Source: Candidatus Anaerostipes excrementavium
GTDB taxonomy: Bacteria > Bacillota > Clostridia > Lachnospirales > Lachnospiraceae
Reading direction: 5' to 3'
Assembly (NCBI GenBank): GCA_019114985.1
Contig: DXEM01000005.1
Coordinates: 1-64,000, forward strand
DNA length: 64,000 nucleotides
The translations under genes and the position numbers were made by a program. Each line of letters starts with the position of its first letter. The stretch's first letter is position 1. Shown piece after piece: positions 26,319 through 53,441 of the stretch. Below the pieces are notes generated by a model. The model was not told where the DNA came from and did not search any database. It saw only the letters and a program-made list of their open reading frames with translations.

Positions 26319-27383
26319 ATGAGTTTCAAAAGAGTCATTAATTGCGTTGAGACCCATGACGGTGAACCAATGCGAGTTGTTACAGGTGGTATCGGACATA
26401 TTCCTGGTAACAGCGTGTATGAGATGGAAGAGTATTTAAGAAAAAACAACGATGGACTTCGTAAGTTCCTGCTCAGAGAACCAAGAGGATATCCGCCGCT
26501 TTGTTGTAATATCTTAGTTCCGCCAAAACATCCGGATGCAGCTGCAGGGTTTATTATTATGGAGCAGGTAGAGTATCCGATGATGTCTGGAGGAAATACG
26601 ATTTCCGTTGCAACAGTTTTACTGGAGACAGGAATTATTCCGATGCAGGAGCCGTATACAGAGTTCAATCTTGAGGCGCCGGCAGGATTGATCGGAATTA
26701 AAGCGAAATGTGAAAATGGAAAAGTTACAGAGGTAACATTTAAGAATCTGCCGGCATTTGCGGTTTACACAGACAAAGAAATTGAAGTACCGCATATCGG
26801 ACATGGTGTGGAAAAAGTAAAAGTTGATGTTGCATGGGGCGGTATGTTTTACGTAATGGCGGATGTCAGACAGTTCCCATGGATAGAACTGACACCAGAT
26901 ATGGGACGTGAAATTACACGTGTATCATCATTAATACTGAAAGCAGCACAAGATCAGTTAGAAGTAAGCCATCCGGATTATCCAGGGGTGGGGATTACAA
27001 TTTCTCAATTGTTCGGACCAACGGATGATCCTAACGCAGATATTAGAAATGCCGTTACGGTTGCAAGCGGGGAAGTAGATTTCGATAATCCGTCAACATG
27101 GATCGGTGCACTGGATCGTTGTCCATGCGGAACAGGAACATGTGCAAGAATGGCAGCTATGTATGCAAAAGGAGAACTGAAACTGAATGAAACATTCCGT
27201 CATCAGGGACTTCTTGGGGTTGTCTATAAAGGCCATCTGATCGAAGAAACCACAGTGGCAGGATACAAAGCAGTTGTGCCTACCATTGCGGGAGAATCCT
27301 GGATTTATGGATTTAATAATTTGGTATTAGATTCAACAGATCCATTCACAGAAGGATATACAATCGGGGATATCTGGGCATAA
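26319..27383 (+). CDS. Proline racemase superfamily enzyme (candidate trans-3-hydroxyproline dehydratase/epimerase-like)
   Basis: MMSGGNTISVATVLLETG (Ser at the first catalytic Cys position) and DRCPCGTGTCARMA (second Cys kept). Confidence 0.85.
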   Translation: MSFKRVINCVETHDGEPMRVVTGGIGHIPGNSVYEMEEYLRKNNDGLRKFLLREPRGYPPLCCNILVPPKHPDAAAGFIIMEQVEYPMMSGGNTISVATVLLETGIIPMQEPYTEFNLEAPAGLIGIKAKCENGKVTEVTFKNLPAFAVYTDKEIEVPHIGHGVEKVKVDVAWGGMFYVMADVRQFPWIELTPDMGREITRVSSLILKAAQDQLEVSHPDYPGVGITISQLFGPTDDPNADIRNAVTVASGEVDFDNPSTWIGALDRCPCGTGTCARMAAMYAKGELKLNETFRHQGLLGVVYKGHLIEETTVAGYKAVVPTIAGESWIYGFNNLVLDSTDPFTEGYTIGDIWA

Positions 27384-27405
27384 TCAGATATATGAAAAGT
27401 AATAC

Positions 27406-27446
27406 AAAGCCTATTTTATCAGTGAATCTAATAAAATAGGCTTTTT
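27406..27446 (+). terminator. Intrinsic terminator after racemase-family gene
   Basis: AAAGCCTATTTTAT...ATAAAATAGGCTTTTT. Confidence 0.88.
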
Positions 27447-27521
27447 GTTTGATCATCAAATTTCATTAATTCTGAAATCCATTTCTTTAATAAGAACATA
27501 TTTTATAGATCGAAAAAACAC

Positions 27522-28298
27522 TTATCTGGCATATCCGAGCAGCCCTGATAGTTTCTTGCAAGAATCCATAAGAATTTTGCTGATATTATTTTCTTCTTCT
27601 TTCGTAAGACTTGATCCGCTAATACTGATGGATCCAATAGGTTTGTTCGTATAATCCATGATAACTGAGCCAACACAAAATACGTGATACTCATTTTCTT
27701 CGATATCTAATGCATAACCTCGCTGTCGTGTTAAGCCCATATCCTGCAGGAAGGATTGAATATCTGTCAACGTATGTTCGGTAAGTGGCTGAATGTTCAT
27801 TTGTTCCCATTTTTCGATAATTGTACCATTTGGATAAGTCGATAAAAGTGCTTTTCCAGCACTGGTACTGTATAACGGAGAACGATATCCGACACTTGTG
27901 TAGACAGAGAAGGAAAGAGATTCTTTTCCAACACTTTGCAGACAGAGCAATTGGTTATTGTCTTCAACAGAGAATTGGGCAATCCGACCGGTTTGGCTGT
28001 TTAAATCAACAAGTGTTGAGTTTATCAATGATAGACGATCTATATTTTGAAGTGCATTAAGGCCGACTTCATATGTTTTCATAGTTAATGAAAATTCGTT
28101 TGTTTTTTCGTTTTTAACAATATACCCATTTCTTTCCAATGTATAGAGTAAACGAGAAAGAGAAGCTTTATTCACTTTTATTTCCCGATTCAAATCAGCA
28201 AGATTTATTGTGTTGACTCGTCCAAGTGTTTCCAAAATATGCAATGCACGATCAACAGCTTGTATTGTCTCGAATTTTGTTTCCTGCGCCATAGGCAC
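27522..28298 (-). CDS. IclR-family transcriptional regulator
   Basis: N-terminal wHTH (AVDRALHILETLGR...LSRLLYTLERNGYI) and IclR effector domain (GYRSPLYSTSAGKALLS). Confidence 0.92.
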   Translation of the reverse strand: MPMAQETKFETIQAVDRALHILETLGRVNTINLADLNREIKVNKASLSRLLYTLERNGYIVKNEKTNEFSLTMKTYEVGLNALQNIDRLSLINSTLVDLNSQTGRIAQFSVEDNNQLLCLQSVGKESLSFSVYTSVGYRSPLYSTSAGKALLSTYPNGTIIEKWEQMNIQPLTEHTLTDIQSFLQDMGLTRQRGYALDIEENEYHVFCVGSVIMDYTNKPIGSISISGSSLTKEEENNISKILMDSCKKLSGLLGYAR

Positions 28299-28313
28299 CT
28301 CCTAAAAATGATA

Positions 28314-28471
28314 TATTTGTTTCACTATTTGTATTATATAAAAAAATAGTGCTTTTTCAAATAAAAAATGAAACAAAAAATGAAAAAAGTTGTTGAAATA
28401 TAAAATAAAATCTGATAATATGAAACTATAAAGAAAAAAGTGAAACAAAAATAAAAAAAGAGAAACAAAAA
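28314..28471. promoter_or_regulatory. Intergenic regulatory region with repeated GTGAAACAAAAAT-like motifs (candidate IclR operators)
   Basis: Copies: GTGAAACAAATA (minus, 28325-28314), ATGAAACAAAAAA (28368-28380), GTGAAACAAAAAT (28440-28452), GAGAAACAAAAAG (about 28460-28472). Confidence 0.55.
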
Positions 28472-28481
28472 GAGGAAGAAA

Positions 28482-28694
28482 ATGGCAAAAGCAAAAGCAG
28501 TTGCGGACACAAGTCTTTGTAAAGGGTGCCGATTATGTGTAGGCGCATGTCCGGTAAAAGCAATCGAACCGCTTACAGAGATTAATAAAAAAGGGTATGA
28601 GATTATCAGAATTAACGAGGAGAAGTGTATAGGGTGTGGGTGCTGCTATAGAATTTGTCCAGATTATGTATTCACAATTAACACATTAGAGTAA
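28482..28694 (+). CDS. 2-oxoacid:ferredoxin oxidoreductase delta subunit (2x[4Fe-4S] ferredoxin)
   Basis: CKGCRLCVGACP and CIGCGCCYRICP. Confidence 0.9.
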   Translation: MAKAKAVADTSLCKGCRLCVGACPVKAIEPLTEINKKGYEIIRINEEKCIGCGCCYRICPDYVFTINTLE

Positions 28695-28712
28695 AAGCAG
28701 GAGGAAAAAAGC

Positions 28713-29798
28713 ATGAGTGAGAAATTTGAACTTATGAAAGGAAATGAAGCGATTGCTGAAGCAGCCCTTAGAGCTGGATGTCGTTTCTATGCAGGATATC
28801 CAATTACACCGCAGAGCGAAATTCTGGAATATATGTCTGCAAACATGGCGAATCGTGGCGGAGTTTTTGTGCAGGGTGAGAGCGAAATTGCAAGTATGAG
28901 CATGTTGTGGGGAGCTGCGGCATGCGGCGAAAGATGTATGACGAGTTCATCAGGTCCAGGGTATGATTTGAAACAGGAAGGAATATCTTATCTTGCTTCT
29001 TACAATTTGCCGGCAGTTTTAGTGGATGTTATGAGATATGGTGTTGGTGATGGAGAAATAACCGAAGGACAGGATTCCTATTGGGAGGCTGTTCGCGGCG
29101 GCGGTCATGGTGATTCCAGACAAATTGTTCTTACACCGGCATCGGTGCAGGAATGTGCAGATCTTACCTATGAAGCATTTGATCTGGCAGAAAAATACCG
29201 TACAGTAGTTATTATATTAAGTGATGGCGGAATTAGTCAGATGATTGAAAAAGTAGTATTGCCTGAGGCTAAAGAACATGACAAGGACAAATTTGACTGG
29301 GCAATCAAAAGTTATAAAAGATCTGATGAGACAAAAGTAAAGGTTACAAATCTTGACCGTTCCATGGACTATGACGAGTATGATCAGATGATTCGAGATA
29401 AGTTCAAGGAAATGCATGACAATGAGCAGCGGTGGGAAGAGTTTATGGTAGATGATGCAGAGATTGTCTTAGTAGCATATGGAATTTCTTCAAGAATTTG
29501 TAAGTCAGCAGTACGCCGTGCACGGGAATCAGGCTTTAAGCTGGGACTGATCCGTTTGATTAGTGCATGGCCATATCCGGAAAAAGCATTCAGAAATCTT
29601 CCGGATTCAGTGAAAGCATTGGTATCTGTAGAAATGAGTTTATCTGCACAGATGGCACAGGATATTTGTCTGGCTACAAAATTTTCTTTGCCGGTATATG
29701 CATATCTAACATCAAAGTATGTGCCGAAAACACAGGGAATCGTGGAGTATTGCAAACGTGTGCTTGAAGGAAAAGAAAAAGAACTGGAGGTATACTAA
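28713..29798 (+). CDS. 2-oxoacid:ferredoxin oxidoreductase alpha subunit
   Basis: GNEAIAEAALRAGCRFYAGYPITPQSEILEYM, TSSSGPGYDLKQEG. Confidence 0.93.
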   Translation: MSEKFELMKGNEAIAEAALRAGCRFYAGYPITPQSEILEYMSANMANRGGVFVQGESEIASMSMLWGAAACGERCMTSSSGPGYDLKQEGISYLASYNLPAVLVDVMRYGVGDGEITEGQDSYWEAVRGGGHGDSRQIVLTPASVQECADLTYEAFDLAEKYRTVVIILSDGGISQMIEKVVLPEAKEHDKDKFDWAIKSYKRSDETKVKVTNLDRSMDYDEYDQMIRDKFKEMHDNEQRWEEFMVDDAEIVLVAYGISSRICKSAVRRARESGFKLGLIRLISAWPYPEKAFRNLPDSVKALVSVEMSLSAQMAQDICLATKFSLPVYAYLTSKYVPKTQGIVEYCKRVLEGKEKELEVY

Positions 29799-29799
29799 A

Positions 29800-30546
29800 A
29801 TGGCTGTGAAATTAACAAAACCAAAAATGATTAATCAGCAGGTGGGCTGGTGCGGCGGCTGCGGACACGGCATCATTCAAAGATTAGTTGCAGAATGTTG
29901 TGAAGAACTGGGTCTGGCAGAGCGAACGGTGCAGGTTGTTGATATTGCTTGTGCCTACTGGTCTATTGATACGCTTAATTGTGATGGGATTGCAGGGCCG
30001 CACGGTCGTTGTGCAGCTGTTGCAACAGGAATCAAAAAAGTACGTCCGGAAGCAAATGTATATGTACATGCCGGTGACGGATGTTCTTATGTCATTGGGT
30101 TATCAGAGACTTGTTATGCAGCGCAGAGAAATGTTCCAATCACAATGATTGTTGTAAATAATGGAATCTTTGGTATGACCGGCGGGCAGATGTGTCTTGC
30201 AACTACTTTAGTGGGAGATAAAACGGTTAGCAGCAAAAAAGGCCGTGATGATAGAGTTGCAGGAGAACCGTTTGACATGTTAAACATCATTCAGAATTAT
30301 CCGATTGCATATGCAGCAAGAGGGGCTTTGTATGATGCAAAACATATAGAAGAAACAAAGAAAATGATTATGAAAGGTTTTAAAAATCAACAGGAAAACA
30401 AAGGATTTTCAATTATTGAAGTATTGTCACCATGTCCTACGAACTGGAAAATGTCAGCAGTAGATGCGATGGAAAAACTAAAAGAGGAAAATTCAAAAGT
30501 ATTTCCGGTAAAAGTATATGTGGATAATACGAAAGGAGGTAAATAA
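29800..30546 (+). CDS. 2-oxoacid:ferredoxin oxidoreductase beta subunit (TPP-binding)
   Basis: GWCGGCGHGIIQR, HAGDGCSYVIG, NNGIFGMTGGQ. ATG at 29800 preferred. Confidence 0.93.
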   Translation: MAVKLTKPKMINQQVGWCGGCGHGIIQRLVAECCEELGLAERTVQVVDIACAYWSIDTLNCDGIAGPHGRCAAVATGIKKVRPEANVYVHAGDGCSYVIGLSETCYAAQRNVPITMIVVNNGIFGMTGGQMCLATTLVGDKTVSSKKGRDDRVAGEPFDMLNIIQNYPIAYAARGALYDAKHIEETKKMIMKGFKNQQENKGFSIIEVLSPCPTNWKMSAVDAMEKLKEENSKVFPVKVYVDNTKGGK

Positions 30547-30548
30547 CA

Positions 30549-31085
30549 ATGGCTGATATAATGTTTGCTGGAATTGGAGGTCAAGGAGTTCTGACGGCTG
30601 GTAAAATATTGATCCAGATTGCGGCAGAGAATGGGAAAAATGTTAGTTGGACAAGTGAGTATTCAGCTGAAATGAGAGGCGGCATTGCCTTGTGCAGAGT
30701 TGTAGTGTCAGATGAGGAAATAGGAAGTCCTTATCCGGATCAATTGGATGTATTGGTTTGTATGAATGAGGATGCGTATAATACGTATATTGATCAAGTA
30801 GCGGATGGCGGAAAGGTTATTATTAATAAGTCAATATTCAGTGAAAGAGAGTATCCGGAGCACGTGGAGGTAATTGGTGTAGATGCCATAGGAATATCCA
30901 ATGAGCTGGAAAATTCCAGAGGAGCAAATCTGGTGATGATGGGTGCTATGATTGAGGCCACGAATATGATGGATAAGCAGCAATTTTCAGATACGCTGAA
31001 GGACTATTTTGATCATAAAGGAAAACCAAGTGAGAAAAATGTACAATGCTTTAATTTGGGATATGAAAAGGCGGAAAAAATCTAA
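30549..31085 (+). CDS. 2-oxoacid:ferredoxin oxidoreductase gamma subunit
   Basis: GIGGQGVLTAGKIL, TSEYSAEMRGG. Confidence 0.93.
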   Translation: MADIMFAGIGGQGVLTAGKILIQIAAENGKNVSWTSEYSAEMRGGIALCRVVVSDEEIGSPYPDQLDVLVCMNEDAYNTYIDQVADGGKVIINKSIFSEREYPEHVEVIGVDAIGISNELENSRGANLVMMGAMIEATNMMDKQQFSDTLKDYFDHKGKPSEKNVQCFNLGYEKAEKI

Positions 31086-31112
31086 TAGTTTAATAAAATG
31101 AAAGAGGTAGCT

Positions 31113-33197
31113 ATGATGGATTTAAAAAAATTATTAAAACCCAGAACGGTAGCCATTGTAGGGGCAAGTGAAAAAGCAGGTTTTGGAGGAGACACTACAA
31201 GAAACTATTTGAAATTCTCTAAGAATCTAGACCGTCTGTATCTTGTGAATCCAGGGAGAGATACAATTTTTGGACAAAAAGCTTATCATTCCTTATCGGA
31301 AATTGAAGGGGATGTAGATTTAGTAATTCTCTGTACGCCTCAAAAAACAATTTTACCGCTGTTAGAGGAGGCAGCAGCAAAAAATTGCGGCGGCGCAATT
31401 GTGTTTGCCAGTGGATATAGTGAAATTGGAGAAGAAGGTAAAGTATTGCAGGAAGCATTAGTTGAGAAAGCAAATAAGCTTGGAATTGCAGTTATGGGTC
31501 CGAACTGTGCAGGTTTTGCAAATTTCATAGATGGAATATTTGCATTTGCTTTTCTGGTGGAGGAGCGAGACAGAAGAGGAAATATTGGCATGATTTCTCA
31601 AAGCGGTCAGATTGTGTTGGGAGGACTGGACAGTCCGAATATGGGGTTCAGTCATGTCATTTCTTCAGGCAATTCCTGCAATGTAAAAGTAGAAGATTAT
31701 TTGGATTTTCTGGTAGAAGACGAAGATACAAAAGTTGTGGCTGTATATATGGAAGGTATCACAAAACCGAAAAAACTTGTCGCTGCATTTGAAAAGGCCG
31801 CTGTAAAGAAAAAACCGGTGATAGTATTAAAGACCGGACGATCTGCGAAGTCACAAGAATTGGCAGCTTCTCATACGGGATCTCTATCAGGTGCCGACAA
31901 GGTATTGCGCGCTGTATTTGAGCGTTATGGAGTTATTGAAGCGAATGATTTAGAAGATTTAATGAATCTTGCGGCATCGTTTTCATGGCTTGCAGAAGCA
32001 CCGAAGGGACAAAAATGTGTATTTATGAATGTTTCTGGCGGAGAAGCAGGCATTATGGCTGATCTGACGGATGATTATGGCATTGAGCTTGCTGAAATGA
32101 GTCAGGAGACAAAAGCATACTTGCAGACGCTGGTTCCGAGTTATGGATCTGTAAATAATCCATTTGATATGACTGCAGGTATTGGGTACAATACACCGAT
32201 CATGGTACAGGCTATGGAAGCAATATCCAAGGATGAAAATGTGGATGCAATTGTTATCGCATATACAATTACACCAGAAATCTGGGACGATACAATTTCT
32301 CACATGGTAGAAGCTGTCTCTATTGCCAGAAAAAATAAAGATTTAAAACCGATATTTTGGATTCCGTTTATAGAACACACCAGGCATAAAGAGAGCGCAG
32401 ACATATTAAAAGCATCAGGCACTCCTCTCTTGGCTACCGGAAAGTATGGCTGCAGTGCTCTGAAAAAAATATTAGATTTTTCTACATCCATGTTTGAGCC
32501 GATGAAACCTGCAATACCAGATAAAATATATAGAACATCTTATAGCTTGAGCGAATTTGAAAGTTTAAATTATCTGCAGAAATATGGAATTTCTATTCCT
32601 CCGCAAAAAATAGCAGCAACAGAGGAAGAAGCTATCGAAGCAGCAAAGGAATTAGGATATCCGTTGTCAGTAAAAATTCACTCAAGAGATATTCAGCATA
32701 AGTCAGATGTTGGTGGTGTAAAACTTAATATACAAAATGACGAGCAGCTGCGGACGGCATTTCGGACGATTATAGATAATTGTATGAAAAATGCACCAAA
32801 AGCGAGGTTAGATGGAGTACTTCTAAAGCCAATGTTAAAACCGGGAACGGAAATGATTATCGGAGTAAACAACGATAAAGATTTCGGACCAATGATTATG
32901 GTAGGAATGGGCGGAGTGTTTGTAGAACTTTTCAAAGATGTACAATTGGCACCGGTGCCGTTGAATCAAAACCAAGCAGAAAAGATGATACAAAAGCTGG
33001 CTTCGTATCCTTTGTTAAATGGATATAGAGGCGGAGAAGTGTGCAATAAAGCAGCACTTGCGGATCTTCTTGTTAAAATAAGTGAAATGGCTGCTGAATG
33101 TAAAGATACAGTGAAAGAATTGGACATCAATCCGGTATTTATTACTGCAGAGGGAGTGTCGATTGCCGATGCACTTTTGGTGCTGTATGAGGATTGA
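31113..33197 (+). CDS. ADP-forming acetyl/acyl-CoA synthetase (fused alpha-beta)
   Basis: CoA-binding N-terminus (RTVAIVGASEKAG), catalytic SHTGSLSG, C-terminal ATP-grasp (PLSVKIHSRDIQHKSDVGGV). GAGGT upstream of ATG 31113; the track starts at 31098. Confidence 0.9.
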   Translation: MMDLKKLLKPRTVAIVGASEKAGFGGDTTRNYLKFSKNLDRLYLVNPGRDTIFGQKAYHSLSEIEGDVDLVILCTPQKTILPLLEEAAAKNCGGAIVFASGYSEIGEEGKVLQEALVEKANKLGIAVMGPNCAGFANFIDGIFAFAFLVEERDRRGNIGMISQSGQIVLGGLDSPNMGFSHVISSGNSCNVKVEDYLDFLVEDEDTKVVAVYMEGITKPKKLVAAFEKAAVKKKPVIVLKTGRSAKSQELAASHTGSLSGADKVLRAVFERYGVIEANDLEDLMNLAASFSWLAEAPKGQKCVFMNVSGGEAGIMADLTDDYGIELAEMSQETKAYLQTLVPSYGSVNNPFDMTAGIGYNTPIMVQAMEAISKDENVDAIVIAYTITPEIWDDTISHMVEAVSIARKNKDLKPIFWIPFIEHTRHKESADILKASGTPLLATGKYGCSALKKILDFSTSMFEPMKPAIPDKIYRTSYSLSEFESLNYLQKYGISIPPQKIAATEEEAIEAAKELGYPLSVKIHSRDIQHKSDVGGVKLNIQNDEQLRTAFRTIIDNCMKNAPKARLDGVLLKPMLKPGTEMIIGVNNDKDFGPMIMVGMGGVFVELFKDVQLAPVPLNQNQAEKMIQKLASYPLLNGYRGGEVCNKAALADLLVKISEMAAECKDTVKELDINPVFITAEGVSIADALLVLYED

Positions 33198-33271
33198 TTA
33201 AAGTAGAAACAATATCAAAAATCGTAAGAGACATACATTGGTTGACTTCTTAAAGAATGCAATGAGGGAGA

Positions 33272-33308
33272 GACGTTATATTACTTGCCAGATATAGCGT
33301 CTTTTCTT
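33272..33308 (+). terminator. Intrinsic terminator between the acyl-CoA synthetase and RidA genes
   Basis: GACGTTATAT...ATATAGCGTCTTTTCTT. Confidence 0.75.
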
Positions 33309-33339
33309 AAAAAATGGAACGAAAGAAAGGAAATCAAAA

Positions 33340-33732
33340 ATGAAAAAGAAATTGAATGAAATTGTAAGTAATGAAGCTTCACCAGCATTAGGACCTTATT
33401 GCCATGGACGAAAATATGGGGATATGATTATTACCTCGGGTCAGATTCCATTAACAAAAGACGGCGAATATGTTTATGAAATTAAGAAGGCAACAGAGTT
33501 GGTACTGCATAATCTATTAAGTATTGTCGAAGCTGGAGGCGGATCGAAAGAAAGCATTGCCAGAGTAGATATTTTCATCAAAGATTTAAATGATTTTGAA
33601 CAAATGAATGAGGCATACAAAAGCTTTTTTGGGGAGCATAGACCAACAAGGGTTTGTGTTCAGGCAGCCGCACTTCCGGCAGATGTCCCGCTGGAAGCGT
33701 CAATGATTGCTTTTGCAGATACGGATGAATAA
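33340..33732 (+). CDS. RidA/YjgF family enamine/imine deaminase
   Basis: ALGPYCHGRKYGDMIITSGQIPL, RPTRVCVQAAALPADVPLEASMIA. Confidence 0.92.
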   Translation: MKKKLNEIVSNEASPALGPYCHGRKYGDMIITSGQIPLTKDGEYVYEIKKATELVLHNLLSIVEAGGGSKESIARVDIFIKDLNDFEQMNEAYKSFFGEHRPTRVCVQAAALPADVPLEASMIAFADTDE

Positions 33733-33750
33733 AGAGAGGTTACATAAGGT

Positions 33751-35340
33751 GTGTGTATGAGAAAAGATGATAAGAAAATAAATAAATGGGCCTTTTGGCC
33801 GGCGATTGTAATATTGATTGGATTTATTCTGGCAGGAATTATATGGACAGAGCAGGTAGGGGCAATCATGACAAAGCTTCTGTACGCAATGGCAGATTAT
33901 TTTGGAGCATATATTAATATATTATCGTTAGTATTCATTGTCTTATGTGTTGTGTTTATTATAAGCAGATATGGGGATGTTGTTATTGGCGGTGAAAATG
34001 CAAAACCGGAATATAATATGGCAAGCTGGTGTGCGATGTCGATTTGTTCAGGGATAGGTACGGGATTGCTATTTTGGGCAATGGGGGAACCGATTTTTCA
34101 TTATATGAGTACACCAATGGCAATTGGAGAAGCAGGAACAAGGAGAGCTGGTATTTTTGCGGTTGCTCAGGCGATGTGGGATTGGAGTTTCGTGCAATAT
34201 AGTATGTATGCAATTTGCGGAGCAGCGTTTGCAATTATTTGTTATAACAGAAAAAAGAGTCTTTCATTTAATTCAATTGTTGAATGCGTAACGGGAAAGA
34301 AAATTAAATGGCTAAATACACTTGTGACAGCGATTGTAATTTTTTGCCTTATGGGAGCAACATCGAACTCTATGGGAGTAGGATTGATGCAGATTGGAGC
34401 AGGTCTTGAAGCGGCATTGGGAATCCCGCAGTCAGCATTGTCCTGGCTGGGAGCAGCAATATTTGTAACGGTGATATTTGTATTATCTTGTGTATCGGGA
34501 ATCGGAAAAGGGTTAAAGTTAATATCATCCGCATGTATGTATTTTTTCTTTTTCTTGCTGGCATATGTGTTTATATTTGGAAATACTCAGTTTATTACCA
34601 AGATTACTTCTGAGTCTATTGGATTTCTTGTTGATAATTTTGGGACAATGACAACGATGACAAACGTGATGACAAACAATGAAAAATGGTTTGCAGACTG
34701 GATTGTTCAATATTGGGCGTCATTTATTGTATATGCGCCGGTAATAGGTATGTTTCTGGCGCGTATGGGAAGAGGACGGAAAGTTCGAACGTTTATGCTG
34801 GTACAGATACTGGTGCCGTCTATTTTTTGTATTGTATGGATCGGAATTTTTGGAGGACAGACAATTTTTCTGCAAACATCAGGTACTTTAGATGTATGGT
34901 CAGCGGTAAATGAGTTAGGAATGCAGGCAACTGTGTTCCAGATTTTAAATACTCTTCCGTTTGGAAAAGTGATTACACTTTTGTTTTTATGTACAGTTAC
35001 TTTGAGTTTTTGTACATTGGCAGACCCAATGTCTTCCGTAGCTGCAACGTTGTCAGTGAATAATATATCAGCGGATGATGAGCCGCCAAAAAAACAGAAG
35101 GTGCTTGTAGGATGTATTCTGGGAGGAACAGCATATACATTGGTTGCGACAGGTGGTATTAATTCTGTAAAGGGGTTGTTTACTTTGGTGGGATTACTGC
35201 AAAGCATCGTATTAATTATGTGTGCTGTTGTCTTGTTTAAATATGGGAAAAAATGCTATTACCTTCCAAACTCCGGATATATTCAAGATAAAAAAGAAAG
35301 TACAGATAAAAAATCGTTTGAAGATAAGAGAGAAGATTGA
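33751..35340 (+). CDS. BCCT family transporter (divergent)
   Basis: SGIGTGLLFWAMGEPIFHY, YAPVIGMFLARMGRGRKVR. About 12 TM. Confidence 0.9.
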   Translation: MCMRKDDKKINKWAFWPAIVILIGFILAGIIWTEQVGAIMTKLLYAMADYFGAYINILSLVFIVLCVVFIISRYGDVVIGGENAKPEYNMASWCAMSICSGIGTGLLFWAMGEPIFHYMSTPMAIGEAGTRRAGIFAVAQAMWDWSFVQYSMYAICGAAFAIICYNRKKSLSFNSIVECVTGKKIKWLNTLVTAIVIFCLMGATSNSMGVGLMQIGAGLEAALGIPQSALSWLGAAIFVTVIFVLSCVSGIGKGLKLISSACMYFFFFLLAYVFIFGNTQFITKITSESIGFLVDNFGTMTTMTNVMTNNEKWFADWIVQYWASFIVYAPVIGMFLARMGRGRKVRTFMLVQILVPSIFCIVWIGIFGGQTIFLQTSGTLDVWSAVNELGMQATVFQILNTLPFGKVITLLFLCTVTLSFCTLADPMSSVAATLSVNNISADDEPPKKQKVLVGCILGGTAYTLVATGGINSVKGLFTLVGLLQSIVLIMCAVVLFKYGKKCYYLPNSGYIQDKKESTDKKSFEDKRED

Positions 35341-35351
35341 GGCAATAGAGA

Positions 35352-36185
35352 ATGAAAAAAGAATTATGTATAAAAGAAGGAGTAACAATACTGAAAATAG
35401 TAATTGGCTGTTTTCTATATGCGTTGTCTGTCGTATTGTTTATTGATCCGGCACAAATTATTCCGGGATCTGTAACAGGAATCGGAGTAGTGGTGAAAGC
35501 CCTGACAGGATTTCCGATTGGTACATTAAGTATTATAATAAATGTTCCGTTAGTAATTATTGGAACAATCATATTGGGAAAACGTCTTTTAATCTATACT
35601 GGAATAACAGTATTGTTATCTTCGCTTATGATTGACTGGCTTACATTTTTAAAACCTTTTACAGAAGACCTTTTATTGGCATCTGTTTTTGGAGGTGTGA
35701 TAATGGGAATTGGGTTGGGGATGATTTTGGATGCAGGAGGGACAACCGGGGGAACAACAGTTGTAGGAAGACTTGTACTGAAGAAATTTCCGCACATTCC
35801 AATGGGAACAATCTTGCTGATTGGTGATTTTATCATTATAACCGTGGGATCGTTATTGCTAAAAGATTGGGATCTTTTATTGTATTCCATTATTGATCTG
35901 TATATTTGTGTAGTGGCTCTGGATAAAGTGATGTATGGATTTAAAATCAATAGTTTCGCAGAAATACGAACAGAAAATCAAATAGAGGTGGAAATTGCAC
36001 TATCAAAGGCCGGATTTAAAAATGTAAGAGTTGAAAAAAATTGCAGAATTGTAGTAATTTGCAGGAAAAAAGAGGTAAGTAAAATTCAGCATATCGTTTT
36101 GGCAATTGACTCTAGGGCAAGCTGTACAGCATATGACATAGACTATTCATTTGGAAATTTGTACAAAGGCTATGTAGAGGAATAA
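35352..36185 (+). CDS. YitT family membrane protein (DUF161 with DUF2179 C-terminus)
   Basis: GSVTGIGVVVKALTGFPIGTLSIIINVPL, GMILDAGGTTGGTTVVGRLV. Confidence 0.88.
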   Translation: MKKELCIKEGVTILKIVIGCFLYALSVVLFIDPAQIIPGSVTGIGVVVKALTGFPIGTLSIIINVPLVIIGTIILGKRLLIYTGITVLLSSLMIDWLTFLKPFTEDLLLASVFGGVIMGIGLGMILDAGGTTGGTTVVGRLVLKKFPHIPMGTILLIGDFIIITVGSLLLKDWDLLLYSIIDLYICVVALDKVMYGFKINSFAEIRTENQIEVEIALSKAGFKNVRVEKNCRIVVICRKKEVSKIQHIVLAIDSRASCTAYDIDYSFGNLYKGYVEE

Positions 36186-36210
36186 ATGTCATCTTGAAAC
36201 ATCAAGAGAT

Positions 36211-36287
36211 TGTAAATGATATACTCCCTTCTAAGCAGACAAGTGGAATAATAAAAAAGTTTGTTTGCTTAAGAGGGAGTATATTTA
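36211..36287. repeat. Long imperfect inverted repeat between convergent genes
   Basis: ATACTCCCTTCTAAGCAGACAA (36221-36242) / TTGTTTGCTTAAGAGGGAGTAT (36261-36282), with partial pairing outside. No T-tract. Confidence 0.7.
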
Positions 36288-36328
36288 TGTCAAAGGAATA
36301 TGAGACGGGCGGTTTGAAGAAGCAAAAA

Positions 36329-37231
36329 TTAATAAGTGAAATTCTTTGCCCAGTTTTTGATATGAGATAAAAAAACATTTGCCGAAGCAGAGGTATAGTA
36401 AGTATCATTTGTAGCAATTACAAGTGAGCGGTAATAATGTTCTTTAAAAGGTCGGATTAATACATTTGCGTGGTTTGGAATACTATCAAGGAAAAACTTT
36501 GAAAAAATACCGACACCAAATCCTGCTTCAATCATTTTTAATGCTACCATTTCATCGTAAATCTCCAGTTTATGGTCAGGATGAATTTGAAGAGCGTTAA
36601 TGATATTGCCGATTTCGAAATTAAATTTTTCGCCGGAAAGAATGTAAGTCATATTTTTGTAGTCGTGTATAGAAATTGAACTTGAAGATGAGAGTTCATG
36701 GTCAATGGGCAATACAGCCATAAATTCGTCCTTTATTACTTCTTCAAAATTAAATTCCAGTACAGAATCTTTCGAGGTGAAAGCGACATCAATATCACCA
36801 TTAGATAATTTGGTGTATATTTCATCTTGATTTCCGGTGAAGATATCAAATTTGATATGAGGATGCTGATCGGAAAAATCTTTGAGTATTCCCGGAAGAT
36901 ATGTAACGGCAAAACTAAAAAAGGATCCTATACGGACAGTTCCGTATTCTGACTTTGTCATTGCATCAGATAAGTGCGATAAATTTTCCTGTGCACGCTT
37001 CATCATCTCCAATGACTGAATCACGTTTTGAGCGACTGGAAGCAGCTTTACCCCGGAATTTGTACGTTTAAAAAGAGGAAAGCCCATCTCGGTCTCAAAT
37101 GCTTTGATTGCCTGACTGACTGCAGATTGACTGTAATTTAAATTTTGTGCAGTTTTTGTAAAATTCTGAGTCTTACACACATCTAAAATAATATCATATT
37201 TGTTCAAATTGTTATATCCTCGATTCTGCAT
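36329..37231 (-). CDS. LysR-family transcriptional regulator
   Basis: FTKTAQNLNYSQSAVSQAIKAFETEMGFPLFKR HTH and substrate-binding domain. Confidence 0.93.
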   Translation of the reverse strand: MQNRGYNNLNKYDIILDVCKTQNFTKTAQNLNYSQSAVSQAIKAFETEMGFPLFKRTNSGVKLLPVAQNVIQSLEMMKRAQENLSHLSDAMTKSEYGTVRIGSFFSFAVTYLPGILKDFSDQHPHIKFDIFTGNQDEIYTKLSNGDIDVAFTSKDSVLEFNFEEVIKDEFMAVLPIDHELSSSSSISIHDYKNMTYILSGEKFNFEIGNIINALQIHPDHKLEIYDEMVALKMIEAGFGVGIFSKFFLDSIPNHANVLIRPFKEHYYRSLVIATNDTYYTSASANVFLSHIKNWAKNFTY

Positions 37232-37338
37232 TTTTTAACAAATTAGTGTTATATTTATTATCTGAAAAAAGGCGAATGATGTCAAGAATAAAGTGGAAAT
37301 ACAGGAAAAGATGGCATATGAATAATGTCGGATATTAG

Positions 37339-37479
37339 AATACTTATGGCCAAAATAAGATTTAATGATTGCCAAACCTTTTAGTTTAAGAGAAGTCATA
37401 CATTGGTTCTGCTATAAGAAAAAACGGAAACGGCGATCAAGTATTGTTAGTTTATTAACAAAGAATTTGAGCTTATAAT
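37339..37479 (+). promoter_or_regulatory. Shared promoter architecture, copy B (upstream of cyclodeaminase-like gene, divergent from LysR)
   Basis: AATACTTAT-N7-ATAAG at 37339, TATAAGAAAA at 37413, GGAAACGGCGATCAA at 37426, TATAAT at 37474. Confidence 0.65.
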
Positions 37480-37549
37480 TCTTAATAAATCAAGCTTGAT
37501 TAAAGTGATTTGGGAAAGCTTAGAATGTAGAAGAAAGGACATAGGAACT

Positions 37550-38527
37550 ATGAAGTTGTTTTCAGAAGAACAAGTAAAACAAGTTTTGAATATGAAAATG
37601 GTCATTTCAGCAATTAAAGAAGCATATATCGAATGCCAGCAAGGTAAATTGTATGCTGGAAAACGTATTTTTATGCCAATTAGAGGGGAGGAAAATGTAG
37701 GACAATGGTTGGTTGCAAATTGTACAGATAAGCCGTTTTTTGGTTCAAAATTTTCATCAGTATTCCCGAAAAATATTAAAAAGGGACTGCCGAGTACACT
37801 TTCAAAAATCAGTCTGTATTCAGCGGAAACAGGAGATTTATTAGCTATTATAGATGCAAACTATTTGACTGCGATTAAAACAGGCGGCAGCGCGGCGGTA
37901 GCCACTGATTTGATGGCAAGGAAAGATGCTTCAAAACTGGCAGTTATAGGTACAGGATTACAAGCTTATTCACAGGTTTTAGCAATTCAGGAAGTGAGAA
38001 GTATATCAAAATTATACGTCTATGATTTGGATGCAGAACGTATCAATAATTTTTGCAAAATGATTGAGCCGGTAAGAAATCGTTCGTATGAAATAATCGC
38101 GGCACCTTCTGCTGATAGTTGTGTTGCGGATGCGGATATAGTTTGTACATGTACAACGTCTTCGAAACCGGTTTTTCAGGGAGAGATGCTGCAGGAAGGA
38201 ACTCATGTGAATGCAATCGGTTCTTTTACATCTTTTATGCAGGAGATTGATGAAGAAACAGTAATACGATCAGCTAAAATTATCACAGAGCATGTGGAAG
38301 GGGTATGGGAGGCTGCCGGAGATATTATTATCCCGTTTCAAAAAGGAATGATAACGAAGGATAAGGTGACAGGTACAGTTGGTGAAGTATTGACAGGGAA
38401 AATATCCCGGAGAGAAAGCAATCAAGAAATTACGCTGTATGAAAGTGTTGGTTCAGGTGTATTGGACATTGCACTCTCGATTGAAGTATATAATAAATTA
38501 AGCAAAGAAAAAAAGGAGGAGAGATAG
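37550..38527 (+). CDS. Ornithine cyclodeaminase/mu-crystallin family protein (candidate pyrroline-2-carboxylate reductase-like)
   Basis: KLFSEEQVKQVL, LSKISLYSAETGDLLAIIDANYLTAIKTGGSAAVATDLMAR, AVIGTGLQA NAD-binding. ATG 37550 preferred. Confidence 0.9.
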   Translation: MKLFSEEQVKQVLNMKMVISAIKEAYIECQQGKLYAGKRIFMPIRGEENVGQWLVANCTDKPFFGSKFSSVFPKNIKKGLPSTLSKISLYSAETGDLLAIIDANYLTAIKTGGSAAVATDLMARKDASKLAVIGTGLQAYSQVLAIQEVRSISKLYVYDLDAERINNFCKMIEPVRNRSYEIIAAPSADSCVADADIVCTCTTSSKPVFQGEMLQEGTHVNAIGSFTSFMQEIDEETVIRSAKIITEHVEGVWEAAGDIIIPFQKGMITKDKVTGTVGEVLTGKISRRESNQEITLYESVGSGVLDIALSIEVYNKLSKEKKEER

Positions 38528-38530
38528 AAT

Positions 38531-39829
38531 ATGGATTATAAAAATGCACCCCTTTCTAAAATACATAAATATGTTTTTCTATGTTTTATATTAGGACAGA
38601 TTGCCTGCGGCTATGCATTGGGAATCGCAGGTACTGCGGTAACAGCAGCTATTGAGCCCTTAAAATTAAATAGTTTTTGGGTTGGCCTTTTGGGAGCAGG
38701 AACATTAATTGGATTAATGGGGAGTATTGTAATTGGGAATATTGCAGATAAAGCAGGCAGAAAACTCCTCTTTTATGTCGATATGATTTTGTTTACAGGA
38801 ATTTCACTGCTGCAGTTTGTTGTGACAGAACCAGGATTATTGTTGGTGCTCCGAATTGGGTTGGGAATCACGATTGCAATTGATTACACAGTTGGCAGCG
38901 CATTATTGACAGAGTGGTTTCCAAGAAAGCAGAGCGCAAGATTCCAAAGTTTGCTGATTATATTTTGGACAATTGGATTTGTCGCATCATATTTTGTAGG
39001 AATATCAATTAATGGCTCTGGAGATAGTACTTGGAAATATATTTTTATTTCATCGGCTATACCGGGGCTTGTTACTGCCGTTGTAAGATTGATTGTTAGA
39101 GTTCCAGAGTCACCAAGCTGGCTTGCAGCAGTAGGAAGGAAAGAAGAAGCTGATTGTCTGGTAAAACAATATTTAAGCAAAGAATATATCGTAATGAACG
39201 TTGTGAAGGCAGAGGAAGTCGAAAAAGTGTCATGGACAGAACTGTTTGATAAGAAAAACAGAAGAAACACGATGGTAGGGGGACTTTTCTATGCGTGTCA
39301 GGTTTTTCCATACTTTGGCGTAAGCATATTCATTCCTATACTTGTCGAAAATATGAATATGACAAACCCGAATGCATCAGGAGCGATATATAATATTTTT
39401 GTAGGAATTGGTGCAGTGGCAGGTGTTATCCTGTTTGATAGAATATCCAGAAGAGCTTTTTTAATATCTACATTTTATATTTCTGCGATTGCGGCATTGG
39501 GTATTGTTTTGGGACAGCATGCACCTATGGCATTTACAATGGTATGTTTTTCGGTGTTTGCAATCGGAATGTCAATTTCAGTTGTTGCAGAAAACCCATA
39601 TCCCCCAGAATTATTTGATACACGACTGCGTGCGTCCGGTGTTGGTGCAGTAATTGCAATGAGCAGGATAGGTGCAGCGCTTGGTACATTTTTGCTGCCA
39701 ATTATCGTAGACAAAGCAGGAGTATATGTGACGCTGATTGTTTGTATGGCGATTTTGTTAGTGGGTGGTATTGTTTGCCAGTTCTATGCTCCGGAAACTT
39801 CTTTGAAATATCGGGCAGATGGAAAATAA
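38531..39829 (+). CDS. MFS transporter
   Basis: 12-TM pattern, GNIADKAGRKLLFY motif, RASGVGAVIAMSRIGAALG. Confidence 0.9.
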   Translation: MDYKNAPLSKIHKYVFLCFILGQIACGYALGIAGTAVTAAIEPLKLNSFWVGLLGAGTLIGLMGSIVIGNIADKAGRKLLFYVDMILFTGISLLQFVVTEPGLLLVLRIGLGITIAIDYTVGSALLTEWFPRKQSARFQSLLIIFWTIGFVASYFVGISINGSGDSTWKYIFISSAIPGLVTAVVRLIVRVPESPSWLAAVGRKEEADCLVKQYLSKEYIVMNVVKAEEVEKVSWTELFDKKNRRNTMVGGLFYACQVFPYFGVSIFIPILVENMNMTNPNASGAIYNIFVGIGAVAGVILFDRISRRAFLISTFYISAIAALGIVLGQHAPMAFTMVCFSVFAIGMSISVVAENPYPPELFDTRLRASGVGAVIAMSRIGAALGTFLLPIIVDKAGVYVTLIVCMAILLVGGIVCQFYAPETSLKYRADGK

Positions 39830-47468: not shown

Positions 47469-47475
47469 AAAAGAA

Positions 47476-47685
47476 ATGGATGCAAAAAAGATTCAGAGAA
47501 TCAATGAACTTTATCATTTGGATAAGTCGGTAGGGCTTACGCCTCAGCAGAAAAAAGAACAAAAAAAGCTTCGTGCAGAATATATTCAGGCTGTCCGGGC
47601 CAATTTGAGAGGGCAGCTTAACAACATCAGCATTCAAAATGAGGATGGATCTGTCACTCCGCTGAAACCAAAAGGAAAAAATTAG
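47476..47685 (+). CDS. DUF896 family protein
   Basis: [41 protein letters not shown]. Confidence 0.9.
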
Positions 47686-47711
47686 CAACTATGATGCAAG
47701 GAGGTATATTT

Positions 47712-49066: not shown

Positions 49067-49241
49067 TTGTTGGAATGGGAAATATTTCCAATAATCGGAA
49101 TAAAAACTTCTTTAAGTGAGACGGTCGTATAGATTTTAAAAGGAGAAGATTGTTTGAAATCCGGTACATTGATTGATTTTCTTCGGCAAAAATCTTATGA
49201 TAATCATGAATGAGAAAAAAGAAAAGAAAGGAAGGCTTAAA

Positions 49242-50558
49242 ATGGCATTGTTTACATTTAGCGGCGGAGTACATCCGGATGATGGAAAAGAATATGCGAA
49301 AAATTCGCCAATCACCGAATATCTGCCAAAAGGAGATGTTGTTTTACCTGTAGGACAACATATCGGCGCCCCTGCGAAACCAATCGTAAGCAAGGGTGAT
49401 TATGTGCTTGCGGGTCAGAAAGTTGCAGAAGCTGGAGGATTTGTATCAGCGAATATCTTTAGTTCTGTTTCCGGAACCGTAAAATCGATTGAGCCAAGAG
49501 TAACTCCTGCGGGTACAAAGGTAAATGCAATCGTAATTGAGAATGACGGAGAATTTAAGGAGGCTGCATTTCAGGCAAAACCTTATGATTCCATGTCAAA
49601 AGAAGAGGTATTGGATGCAATCAAGGAAGCCGGTATCGTAGGTTTGGGAGGTGCCGGATTCCCGACGCATGTAAAATTGGCTCCAAAGAACCCGGATGAG
49701 ATCGAATACATCATTGTCAATGGCGCAGAGTGTGAACCTTATATCACAGGCGATTACCGGATTCTGATGGAAACACCGGAACTGGTCATTGAAGGACTGA
49801 ATATTGTACTGGATCTGTTCCCGAAGGCAAAAGGAATCATCGGAATTGAGGATAATAAAAAAGATGCGATTGCGAAGATGGAATCCCTTGTAAAAGGTGA
49901 CAGCAGAATCAGTGTTGCTCCTTTAAAAACAAAGTATCCACAGGGAGCGGAGCGTTCTTTAATCTACGCAACAACAGGCAGAAGCATCAATTCCAGCATG
50001 CTTCCGGCAGATGCGGGATGTATTGTAGATAACGTTGCAACGATTACAGCGATTAAAGAAGCAGTAAAAGACGGAAAACCTCTTTTCTCACGTGTTGTAA
50101 CAGTGACTGGGGATGCCATTGCGAATCCTGGCAACTTCCTGGTTCGTACAGGAACCAATGTGAACGAACTGATCGAAGCTGCAGGAGGATTTAAGAATCA
50201 GCCGGAAAAAGTAATTTCCGGAGGTCCGATGATGGGTATGGCAATGTTTACGACAGATGTACCGGCGGTCAAGACATTTTCATGTTTCCTGGCAATGACA
50301 AAAGATGAAGTCTCTGCCAATCAGCCAAGCAACTGTATCCGATGCGGAAGATGTGTCAGTGTCTGTCCGCAGAAGCTGATGCCGATGAAGTTATCTGTGC
50401 TTGCCGATCATCAGGAATTTGATGAATTTGAAAAGCTGCACGGAGCAGAATGCGTGGAGTGCGGATCTTGTTCTTATATCTGTCCGGCAAAACGTAATCT
50501 TGCCCAGTCTATGAAGACAGGTCGAAAACAGGTATTAGCAAACCGTAGAAAGAAATAA
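49242..50558 (+). CDS. rnfC: Rnf electron transport complex subunit C
   Basis: GGVHPDDGKE, GAGFPTHVKL, CIRCGRCVSVCP and CVECGSCSYICP. Confidence 0.95.
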   Translation: MALFTFSGGVHPDDGKEYAKNSPITEYLPKGDVVLPVGQHIGAPAKPIVSKGDYVLAGQKVAEAGGFVSANIFSSVSGTVKSIEPRVTPAGTKVNAIVIENDGEFKEAAFQAKPYDSMSKEEVLDAIKEAGIVGLGGAGFPTHVKLAPKNPDEIEYIIVNGAECEPYITGDYRILMETPELVIEGLNIVLDLFPKAKGIIGIEDNKKDAIAKMESLVKGDSRISVAPLKTKYPQGAERSLIYATTGRSINSSMLPADAGCIVDNVATITAIKEAVKDGKPLFSRVVTVTGDAIANPGNFLVRTGTNVNELIEAAGGFKNQPEKVISGGPMMGMAMFTTDVPAVKTFSCFLAMTKDEVSANQPSNCIRCGRCVSVCPQKLMPMKLSVLADHQEFDEFEKLHGAECVECGSCSYICPAKRNLAQSMKTGRKQVLANRRKK

Positions 50559-50573
50559 AGGAGAGAGATACAT

Positions 50574-51521
50574 ATGAGCGAATCATTATATCATGTGTCA
50601 GCCAACCCTCATGTCAGGGATCATGGCTCCACACAGAAGATTATGCTGGATGTCATAATCGCATTATTGCCCGCTACGATCTTTGGTATCTATATCTTTG
50701 GCGTGCCTGCGGCGAAAACGATTGTTATTTCCGTCGTTACCTGCGTTGCGGCAGAATATATTTACCAAAAACTGATGAAACAGCCGATTACCATACAGGA
50801 TCTGAGTGCTGCCCTGACCGGTCTTTTGCTGGCTCTGAATCTGCCGTCTGAAGTACCGTTTTGGATGCCGATCTTAGGTGGATTTTTTGCAATTATTGTT
50901 GTAAAACAGTTATTCGGAGGCTTGGGACAGAACTTTATGAACCCTGCGCTTGGTGCCAGATGTTTCCTGATGATTTCCTTCGCTGCAAGAATGACGACCT
51001 TTACTTATGATGGTGTGACGACAGCGACACCGATGGCTTCCTTAAAAGCAGGAGAAGCAGTCGATGTATTAAAATTATTCGAAGGATTTATTCCGGGTAC
51101 GATCGGAGAGACTTCTGCGCTCCTTCTGATCATCGGAGGAATTTATCTGGTTGCACGTAAGGTGATTTCACCGATTATTCCTTGTGTTTACGTTGCAACA
51201 GTTGCCGTTTTCGTAGCGATTTTCGGCGGACATGGCCTGGATCTTTCATTTATTGCGTCCCATTTGTTCGGAGGCGGATTGATGCTTGGTGCGATCTTCA
51301 TGGCAACTGACTATGTAACATCACCAATCACAGATAAAGGAAAAGTAATTTATGGAATAATTCTTGGTATTCTGACAGGCGTTTTCCGTTTGTTCGGACC
51401 AATGTCAGAGGGAGTTTCTTACTCTATCATTATTGCCAATATTTTGGTTCCTTTGATTGAGAAAGTAACCGTTCCTGTTCCGTTTGGAATTACAAAGAAG
51501 GGAGGAAAGAGCAATGAATAA
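50574..51521 (+). CDS. rnfD: Rnf complex subunit D
   Basis: SANPHVRDHGSTQKIMLDVIIALLPA, FMATDYVTSPITDKGK. Confidence 0.95.
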   Translation: MSESLYHVSANPHVRDHGSTQKIMLDVIIALLPATIFGIYIFGVPAAKTIVISVVTCVAAEYIYQKLMKQPITIQDLSAALTGLLLALNLPSEVPFWMPILGGFFAIIVVKQLFGGLGQNFMNPALGARCFLMISFAARMTTFTYDGVTTATPMASLKAGEAVDVLKLFEGFIPGTIGETSALLLIIGGIYLVARKVISPIIPCVYVATVAVFVAIFGGHGLDLSFIASHLFGGGLMLGAIFMATDYVTSPITDKGKVIYGIILGILTGVFRLFGPMSEGVSYSIIIANILVPLIEKVTVPVPFGITKKGGKSNE

Positions 51522-52125
51522 GAGCATTATTTCTGATTGTATCAAATTATGCGTTATCACTGTAATTGCCGGTTTCCTTCTTGGTCTGGTATATAACGTA
51601 ACCAAAGCGCCGATTGCGGCACAGCAGGAAAAAACAAAGCAAGAGGCTTACAAAGCTGTATTTGAAGACGCAGCAGAGTTTCAGGCAATGGACATCGATG
51701 AAAAAGATATTTCCAAAGTTCTTGATGAAAATGGATTGGGACAGAATACTATTACTGAGATTGCCGAGGCAGTAGACAAAGACGGAAATGTTATCGGACA
51801 TGTATTTTCCGTAACAAATCCGGAAGGCTATGGCGGTGATATCTCTCTTTCTGTAGGTGTAAGATCTGATGGAACCGTTAACGGATATGAGACACTGTCC
51901 ATCAGCGAAACGGCCGGTCTTGGTATGAAAGCAACAGAAGACGAGTTTAAGAGCAATTTCAAAAATAAAAAGGCAGATACATTTGAGGTCGTGAAAGATG
52001 GATCCGGAGCGAATGATGACGCTAAAGTGGATGCCATCAGCGGAGCGACAATTACAAGCCGTGCTGTGACCAGCGGTGTTAACAGCTGCGTCGCATACGC
52101 AAACAGCCTGAAGGGAGGGGAATAA
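51514..52125 (+). CDS. rnfG: Rnf complex subunit G (FMN-binding)
   Basis: FMN-binding domain with DAISGATITSRAVTSGVN. Confidence 0.94.
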   Translation: MNKSIISDCIKLCVITVIAGFLLGLVYNVTKAPIAAQQEKTKQEAYKAVFEDAAEFQAMDIDEKDISKVLDENGLGQNTITEIAEAVDKDGNVIGHVFSVTNPEGYGGDISLSVGVRSDGTVNGYETLSISETAGLGMKATEDEFKSNFKNKKADTFEVVKDGSGANDDAKVDAISGATITSRAVTSGVNSCVAYANSLKGGE

Positions 52126-52128
52126 AAC

Positions 52129-52842
52129 ATGAAAACAAATCCGATCGAGCGTTTGATCAACGGTATCATTAAAGAAAATCCAACCTTCGTTTTAACACTG
52201 GGTATGTGTCCGACGCTGGCGGTTACCACATCTGCGATCAATGGTGTAGGAATGGGACTTTCCACAACCGTCGTTTTGATGTTTTCCAACATGGTGATTT
52301 CCGCACTTCGGAACATTATTCCTGATCGTGCCAGAATCCCGGGATATATTGTAGTCATCGCGTCTCTGGTAACGATCGTGCAGTTTTTGCTGGAAGGATA
52401 TGTTCCATCTGTTTATTCTGCATTGGGACTTTATATTCCGCTGATCGTTGTAAACTGTATTATCCTTGGACGTGCAGAAGCATTTGCTGCAAAAAATAAT
52501 CCAATCAATTCTTTCTTTGACGGACTCGGAATGGGATTTGGATTTACCATTGCCCTGACTTTGATTGGAGCATTCCGAGAGATCCTGGGTGCAGGACAGA
52601 TCTTTGGCATGCAGGTGATGCCGGCGTCCTATGAGCCAATCACGATTTTCATTCTGGCGCCGGGAGCATTCTTTGTTCTGGCATGCCTGATTGCGGCTCA
52701 GAACAAGATCAGAAATAAGAAAATTGAGAAAGGTCTTCCGGTACATCCTTCTGCAGGATGCGGAGACTGTGCATCTTGCGGAAACCATGCCTGCGGTACA
52801 AGATTCTTTAATCTTGATGCGGATCAGAAGAAAGAAAATTAA
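52129..52842 (+). CDS. rnfE: Rnf complex subunit E
   Basis: NPTFVLTLGMCPTLAVTTSAINGVGMG. Confidence 0.95.
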   Translation: MKTNPIERLINGIIKENPTFVLTLGMCPTLAVTTSAINGVGMGLSTTVVLMFSNMVISALRNIIPDRARIPGYIVVIASLVTIVQFLLEGYVPSVYSALGLYIPLIVVNCIILGRAEAFAAKNNPINSFFDGLGMGFGFTIALTLIGAFREILGAGQIFGMQVMPASYEPITIFILAPGAFFVLACLIAAQNKIRNKKIEKGLPVHPSAGCGDCASCGNHACGTRFFNLDADQKKEN

Positions 52843-52853
52843 GGAGGATACAT

Positions 52854-53429: not shown

Positions 53430-53441
53430 GAGGTAGATGGA

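Follow-up and report, generated by a model that had tools for sequence, protein, structure and literature searches.

An accessory gene island of Candidatus Anaerostipes excrementavium as a possible horizontally mobile pathway for 3-hydroxyproline-type imino acids

Results

Organization of the island

We analyzed a 64,000-nt stretch of DNA from Candidatus Anaerostipes excrementavium (the window). At 26319-39829 it carries an island encoding a proline racemase superfamily (PRS) enzyme (Rac), a 2-oxoacid:ferredoxin oxidoreductase (KOR), a fused ADP-forming acyl-CoA synthetase, RidA, an OCD/mu-crystallin family enzyme (OCD), BCCT and MFS transporters, a YitT-family protein, and two regulators (Table 1). 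Hidden Markov model (HMM) searches against Pfam and NCBIfam confirmed the families that an earlier note on this DNA had assigned, and each gene it listed is an intact open reading frame (ORF) at its place. Strand and spacing divide the genes into three units: Rac by itself, the run from KOR through YitT with IclR divergent from it, and OCD-MFS with LysR divergent from it. We propose that the island may encode a horizontally mobile pathway by which anaerobes would use 3-hydroxyproline-type imino acids, in which the proline ring bears a beta-hydroxyl and is either free or N-methylated, and put the chances of this proposal at about even. It draws on gene identity, conserved linkage, co-occurrence, and signs of transfer; every activity and substrate is proposed.

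Table 1. Genes of the island and the Rnf complex downstream (window positions)
Feature	Position	Strand	Support
Rac, proline racemase superfamily, proposed 3-hydroxyproline-type dehydratase	26319..27383	+	PF05544, 341.7 bits
IclR-type regulator, divergent from KOR operon	27522..28298	-	PF01614/PF09339
KOR delta, 2x[4Fe-4S] ferredoxin-like subunit	28482..28694	+	ORF with two CxxCxxCxxxCP motifs
KOR alpha, 2-oxoacid:ferredoxin oxidoreductase	28713..29798	+	PF01855, PF17147; NF005507
KOR beta, thiamine diphosphate subunit	about 29800..30546	+	PF02775; PorB/KorB models
KOR gamma	30549..31085	+	PorC_KorC and KOR gamma models
Fused ADP-forming acyl-CoA synthetase	31098..33197	+	PF13380, PF13607, PF13549
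RidA enamine/imine deaminase	33340..33732	+	TIGR00004
BCCT transporter, altered aromatic cage, proposed substrate importer	33751..35340	+	TIGR00842, E 4.5e-92
YitT-family membrane protein	35352..36185	+	PF02588
LysR-type regulator of OCD-MFS module	36329..37231	-	PF03466
OCD/mu-crystallin family ketimine reductase (Delta1-pyrroline-2-carboxylate type), putative	about 37550..38527	+	PF02423
MFS transporter of OCD module	38531..39829	+	PF07690
Rnf complex, outside island	49173..54266	+	Pfam RnfC, RnfD/E, FMN_bind, Rnf-Nqr, Fer4

KOR has four subunits of the delta-alpha-beta-gamma type, including a thiamine diphosphate domain and a 2x[4Fe-4S] subunit. The synthetase combines CoA-binding, ligase, and ATP-grasp domains in one chain, and its closest solved relative is a 4-hydroxybutyrate-CoA ligase. 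RidA passes TIGR00004 (112.5, cut-off 106.25), and the best solved relative of OCD is the Delta1-pyrroline-2-carboxylate (Pyr2C) reductase 6t3e. Pfam domains also verified the Rnf complex that had been placed at 49-54 kb, a possible outlet for reduced ferredoxin from the island.

A putative IclR operator motif, TGAAACAAA, showed no enrichment, and promoter and terminator scans gave no signal above chance level. A 17-pair hairpin at 27406-27444, where the Rac and IclR genes converge, is possibly a terminator. At 46611-48953, 7 kb downstream of the island, an amino acid kinase gene is followed by an aldehyde-dehydrogenase-type gene, a proBA-like pair (proline synthesis). A search of the window's own genome for proline reductase gave no match, and neither did its control.

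Conservation and transfer

We compared the island with 80 further loci from a collection-wide scan for Rac (L numbers) and with 250 genomes of the same family (G numbers; L046 and L089 are the same contigs as the G202 and G133 loci, respectively). A close Ser-type Rac is present in 2 of the 250 genomes, G202 and G133. KOR alpha at >80% identity occurs in exactly these two, within the same clusters as Rac; assuming two independent draws, the chance of this match is about 1 in 31,000.

Together with the window Rac, 13 relatives that are >80% identical to it form one clade of 14 (SH-aLRT 100) that spans Bacillota, Synergistota, and Spirochaetota. Eleven of the 14 lie with the KOR-RidA-BCCT set. 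KOR is near Rac in L037, L038, L039, L042, L044, L046, L047, and L048, and two of the 11, L043 and L045, come from cut contigs with RidA and BCCT only. In the remaining three (L040, L041, and L049), LysR-OCD takes the place of the KOR set, with MFS also present in L040 and L041. The KOR and OCD modules are usually alternatives in different genomes; both are present in the window and in L042 (OCD 52% identical). Of eight genomes searched for an OCD at >60% identity, only the Enterococcus that carries the OCD module had one.

The smaller genes recur as well. IclR homologs lie beside KOR in L038, L039, L042, L044, L047, and L073 and within the clusters of L035 and L046, KOR delta homologs (68-83% identical) are beside KOR alpha in relatives, and YitT is found in the KOR clusters L033, L035, L038, L044, and L073. 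LysR homologs (58-62%) adjoin OCD and/or Rac in L040, L041, L049, and L063, OCD homologs (66-72%) are near Rac in L040, L041, and L049, and MFS homologs (66%) lie between OCD and Rac in L040 and L041. The earlier note had described one catabolic island and had named non-conserved synteny as evidence that would speak against it; the neighborhood proved to be conserved. Since further genomes, some in other phyla, contain the same gene set, the grouping goes beyond chance. Since each of the KOR and OCD halves adjoins Rac in clade relatives, both belong with Rac.

These linkages also bear on whether ordinary branched or aryl 2-oxoacids are what KOR and the synthetase ferment, with Rac, OCD, and the transporters as neighbors that share no function with them. 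KOR alpha scores above the cut-off of the VorB subfamily model for branched-chain oxoacids (NF005507, 420.5 against 399), and KOR paralogs are frequent in this family. However, none of the 250 genomes has the island's KOR clade without Ser-type Rac, and the two also occur together in both Bacillota and Synergistota, although gene order is shuffled. We consider this reading very improbable. KOR specificity is not readable from sequence.

The identities of the island genes point to transfer. For [Clostridium] citroniae (KOR type), the housekeeping protein PhoH is 70% identical to that of the window, while Rac and KOR alpha are 90-91% identical; in Enterococcus malodoratus (OCD type) the values are 48% for PhoH and 89% for Rac. 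Because Rac and KOR alpha identities far exceed those of PhoH, horizontal transfer is the simplest reading. Rac and island-type KOR are missing from the one same-genus genome sampled.

Catalytic residues and neighbors of Rac

Rac falls well within the PRS (341.7 bits against a gathering score of 27), with Cys or Ser/Thr at both catalytic positions. Its catalytic pair is Ser90/Cys270, in the motifs MSGGN and DRCPCGTG, and an Asn lies three residues past the first catalytic Ser, as described for Ser-type enzymes (PMC4113996). Catalytic residues alone leave Rac activity undecided, because a characterized Ser/Cys member, Avi_0518, is a 4-hydroxyproline epimerase (4HypE), while a characterized Ser/Thr member is a trans-3-hydroxyproline (t3Hyp) dehydratase (PMC4113996). 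Ser-Cys and Ser-Thr types were termed function unknown, and Ser-Thr types have since been annotated as trans-3-hydroxy-L-proline dehydratase (T3LHypD) (PMC4364671). We infer a dehydratase role for Rac from its family and gene context.

Aconitase X (AcnX) adjoins Rac or lies close to it in five anaerobic loci (L037, L039, L042, L044, and L052) and in one Chloroflexota locus, and characterized bacterial AcnX members dehydrate cis-3-hydroxy-L-proline (PMC5144071, PMC8184944). The substrate-binding residues W35, S70, D203, E292, S293, K530, and Y534 of AtAcnX are kept in the relatives' AcnX; the N-contacting Thr72 is not kept (Gly, where the local alignment is ambiguous), and Ile206 is Val (residues from PMC8184944). 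Imine reductases of the OCD or MLD2 family are found in 24/80 Rac loci, and both families reduce proline ketimine in PRS neighborhoods (PMC4113996). PutA is present in 4/80 loci, L040 has a tautomerase gene between MFS and Rac, and a Xaa-Pro-type amidohydrolase and a KGSADH-like aldehyde dehydrogenase (ALDH) occur near Rac in relatives. A class III CoA-transferase is found in L042, L044, L045, L047, and L048; in four of these loci it is near KOR and no ADP-forming synthetase was seen, and the fifth (L045) is on a cut contig.

Together, AcnX, imine reductases, PutA, the tautomerase, RidA, KOR, and the CoA-transferase favor dehydration by Rac. All of these neighbors would be explained by a Rac product, an enamine or imine, that is then either reduced or hydrolyzed and oxidized. 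The earlier note's proposal that a beta-hydroxy cyclic imino acid is dehydrated to an imine is supported by the linkage of Rac with AcnX, OCD/MLD2, PutA, and RidA plus KOR, and weakened by the presence of the Ser/Cys pair in an epimerase (PMC4113996). The same conserved linkages support the two fates it gave the imine, reduction by OCD and oxidation through KOR and the synthetase.

These neighbors also argue about the shape of the substrate. Rac could act on an acyclic beta-hydroxy-alpha-amino acid (e.g., beta-hydroxy-trimethyllysine or beta-hydroxyaspartate) to give a linear enamine, with RidA hydrolyzing it and KOR acting on the oxoacid. Known RidA substrates are linear enamines or imines; quaternary ammonium compounds are the usual BCCT cargo; and iminosuccinate reductase is among the OCD relatives. 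However, the characterized PRS enzymes in PMC4113996 and PMC4364671 all act on proline derivatives, and PutA, MLD2, the Xaa-Pro-type amidohydrolase, and the KGSADH-like ALDH in relatives indicate a proline skeleton, making an acyclic substrate improbable. Two further routes were considered and rejected. Conversion of trimethyllysine to delta-valerobetaine, suggested by BCCT, KOR, and MttB, lacks a deaminating enzyme, and a proline ring agrees better with the PutA/MLD2/AcnX context; conversion of carnitine to crotonobetaine yields no 2-oxoacid.

Several Rac loci have other arrangements. In L052:7395-12855, genes for a DHDPS-family enzyme, aconitase X, Rac, and an iron alcohol dehydrogenase are consecutive and resemble parts of the 4-hydroxyproline pathway. 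In L063, L064, L088, and L096 (Enterococcus, Eubacterium callanderi, Levilactobacillus, and Tetragenococcus), Rac (57-69%) occurs with an enoyl-reductase-like MDR enzyme and LysR, mostly with MFS and in two cases with BCCT, a third neighborhood type that would involve a different chemistry. Lactonifactor longoviformis (G133) has eight KOR alpha-like genes (47-82% identity) in one genome and four Rac paralogs within about 16 kb (L036:428-4632 and L035:8133-9185), beside an AP_endonuc_2-family protein; in one paralog the first catalytic Ser motif is degraded, with CAGAV replacing MSGGN. Upstream of the Lactonifactor island, L035:3184-4431 encodes a LarAH6-family nickel-dependent malate racemase (above cut-off) with a malic-enzyme-like neighbor.

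Betaine-type genes and the substrate nitrogen

MttB is near Rac in L034, L035, L073, and L108, and L108 adds genes for a corrinoid protein and a methyltetrahydrofolate methyltransferase. A Rieske oxygenase, whose nearest structures are GbcA-like and the stachydrine demethylase Stc2, is encoded in Rac loci of Burkholderiales and others. Position 92 of Rac, near the substrate nitrogen, is Gly; in characterized enzymes, the residue near the prolyl nitrogen is His or Ser (PMC4113996). BCCT, MttB, or Rieske genes are found in 24/58 Gly92 loci and 0/22 Ser/Thr92 loci (Fisher p=9e-5, uncorrected for kinship); for loci of at least 15 kb, the counts are 19/45 and 0/8 (p=0.04, likewise uncorrected). The AcnX of relatives shows a parallel change, as the N-contacting Thr72 of AtAcnX is also missing there in a locally ambiguous alignment.

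Alternatively, Rac may act on hydroxyproline or proline betaines as a 2-epimerase or racemase instead of a dehydratase, and the genes may serve betaine catabolism, with demethylation as the key step. This view accounts for the Ser/Cys pair, which matches 4HypE Avi_0518 (PMC4113996), for the confinement of betaine-type genes to Gly92 loci, for the GbcA/Stc2-like Rieske enzyme, and for the methyltransferase genes of L108. Yet the Gly92 association weakens in the longer loci, MttB was not found in the window's own genome, and no D-isomer oxidase was seen in the anaerobic clusters. Epimerization alone would also supply no oxoacid for KOR and give no role to RidA, OCD, or MLD2. We therefore view this alternative as unlikely, if credible.

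The Rac substrate may be N-methylated. The BCCT of the window lacks the BetP-type Trp cage of TM4/TM8 (YWAWWISWSP in BetP, YWASFIVYAP in the window). This cage is lost in the BCCTs of KOR clusters, while the WW pair is kept in those of MttB clusters. A consistent reading is that MttB clusters import and demethylate a quaternary betaine, whereas a secondary or tertiary amine is imported by clusters of the window type. Citrus intake has 3-hydroxystachydrine, N-methylproline, and stachydrine among its plasma markers (PMC7600452), so an N-methylated 3-hydroxyproline is a plausible dietary substrate. In a more specific version, to which we give low credence, a mobile module carried by anaerobes of the gut and mouth would ferment dietary N-methylated 3-hydroxyproline (e.g., from 3-hydroxystachydrine) by dehydration, opening of the ring, and KOR to N-methylated 4-aminobutyrate plus ATP, and OCD would serve as the electron sink by forming N-methylproline.

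Discussion

In the pathway we propose, the substrate would be imported by BCCT and/or MFS. Rac would remove the alpha proton and the beta-hydroxyl to give an enamine and then a Pyr2C-type cyclic imine. In one branch, OCD would use NAD(P)H to reduce the imine to proline or N-methylproline. In the other, the imine would open to a 5-amino-2-oxopentanoate-type acid, possibly with help from RidA; KOR would decarboxylate this oxoacid to acyl-CoA, CO2, and reduced ferredoxin; and the synthetase would convert the acyl-CoA to a 4-aminobutyrate-type acid and ATP. 4-Aminobutyrate (GABA) may be one product. With both modules and Rnf in one genome, oxidizing one substrate molecule could pay for reducing another.

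Several points weigh against this pathway. Rac could be an epimerase, as its second catalytic residue is the Cys of 4-hydroxyproline epimerase and not the dehydratase's Thr, and it scores below every NCBIfam equivalog cut-off (307.9 against 550; 215.5 against 540). OCD is below the equivalog cut-off for Pyr2C reductase (NF004793, 233.6 against 322), and the VorB match of KOR alpha counts here as well. AcnX is absent from the window, and matches in its own genome are weak and below cut-off. A literature search found no paper in which RidA acts on a cyclic imine. Finally, 4-aminobutyryl-CoA is prone to lactam formation, in which case the ATP step would be wasted; a substrate with N,N-dialkylation would avoid this cyclization.

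If the proposal is correct, hydroxyproline catabolism would be linked to ferredoxin-dependent energy conservation without an aminotransferase, and a widespread Ser/Cys clade of the PRS would gain a function. It would also point to a route by which bacteria consume hydroxyproline compounds from collagen or citrus, and to a possible gut source of GABA-like products. The gene set is common to gut and oral anaerobes, and the ferredoxin/ATP branch is not described for the known hydroxyproline pathway. A full-text search of open-licence papers found none describing this route; the individual parts are of known kinds, and their combination is new.

The island resembles three known systems in part. 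As in the bacterial L-hydroxyproline (Lhp) pathways, in which T3LHypD or AcnX works with a Pyr2C reductase on trans- and cis-3-hydroxy-L-proline, a superfamily enzyme adjoins an OCD reductase, with AcnX in related loci. Unlike in those pathways, the product is proposed to go also to KOR, RidA, and an ADP-forming synthetase, Rac belongs to a separate Ser/Cys Gly92 clade, and BCCT/MFS transporters replace ABC or TRAP importers. Like the oxidative branch of Stickland-type fermentation (KOR plus ADP-forming acyl-CoA synthetase), the KOR module would convert a 2-oxoacid to an acyl-CoA and then an acid, yielding reduced ferredoxin and ATP; unlike that branch, the cluster has no aminotransferase, and an imine is the proposed source of the oxoacid. 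Lastly, MttB-superfamily betaine demethylation and Stc2/GbcA-type stachydrine demethylation are co-located with Rac homologs in some relatives, but not in the window.

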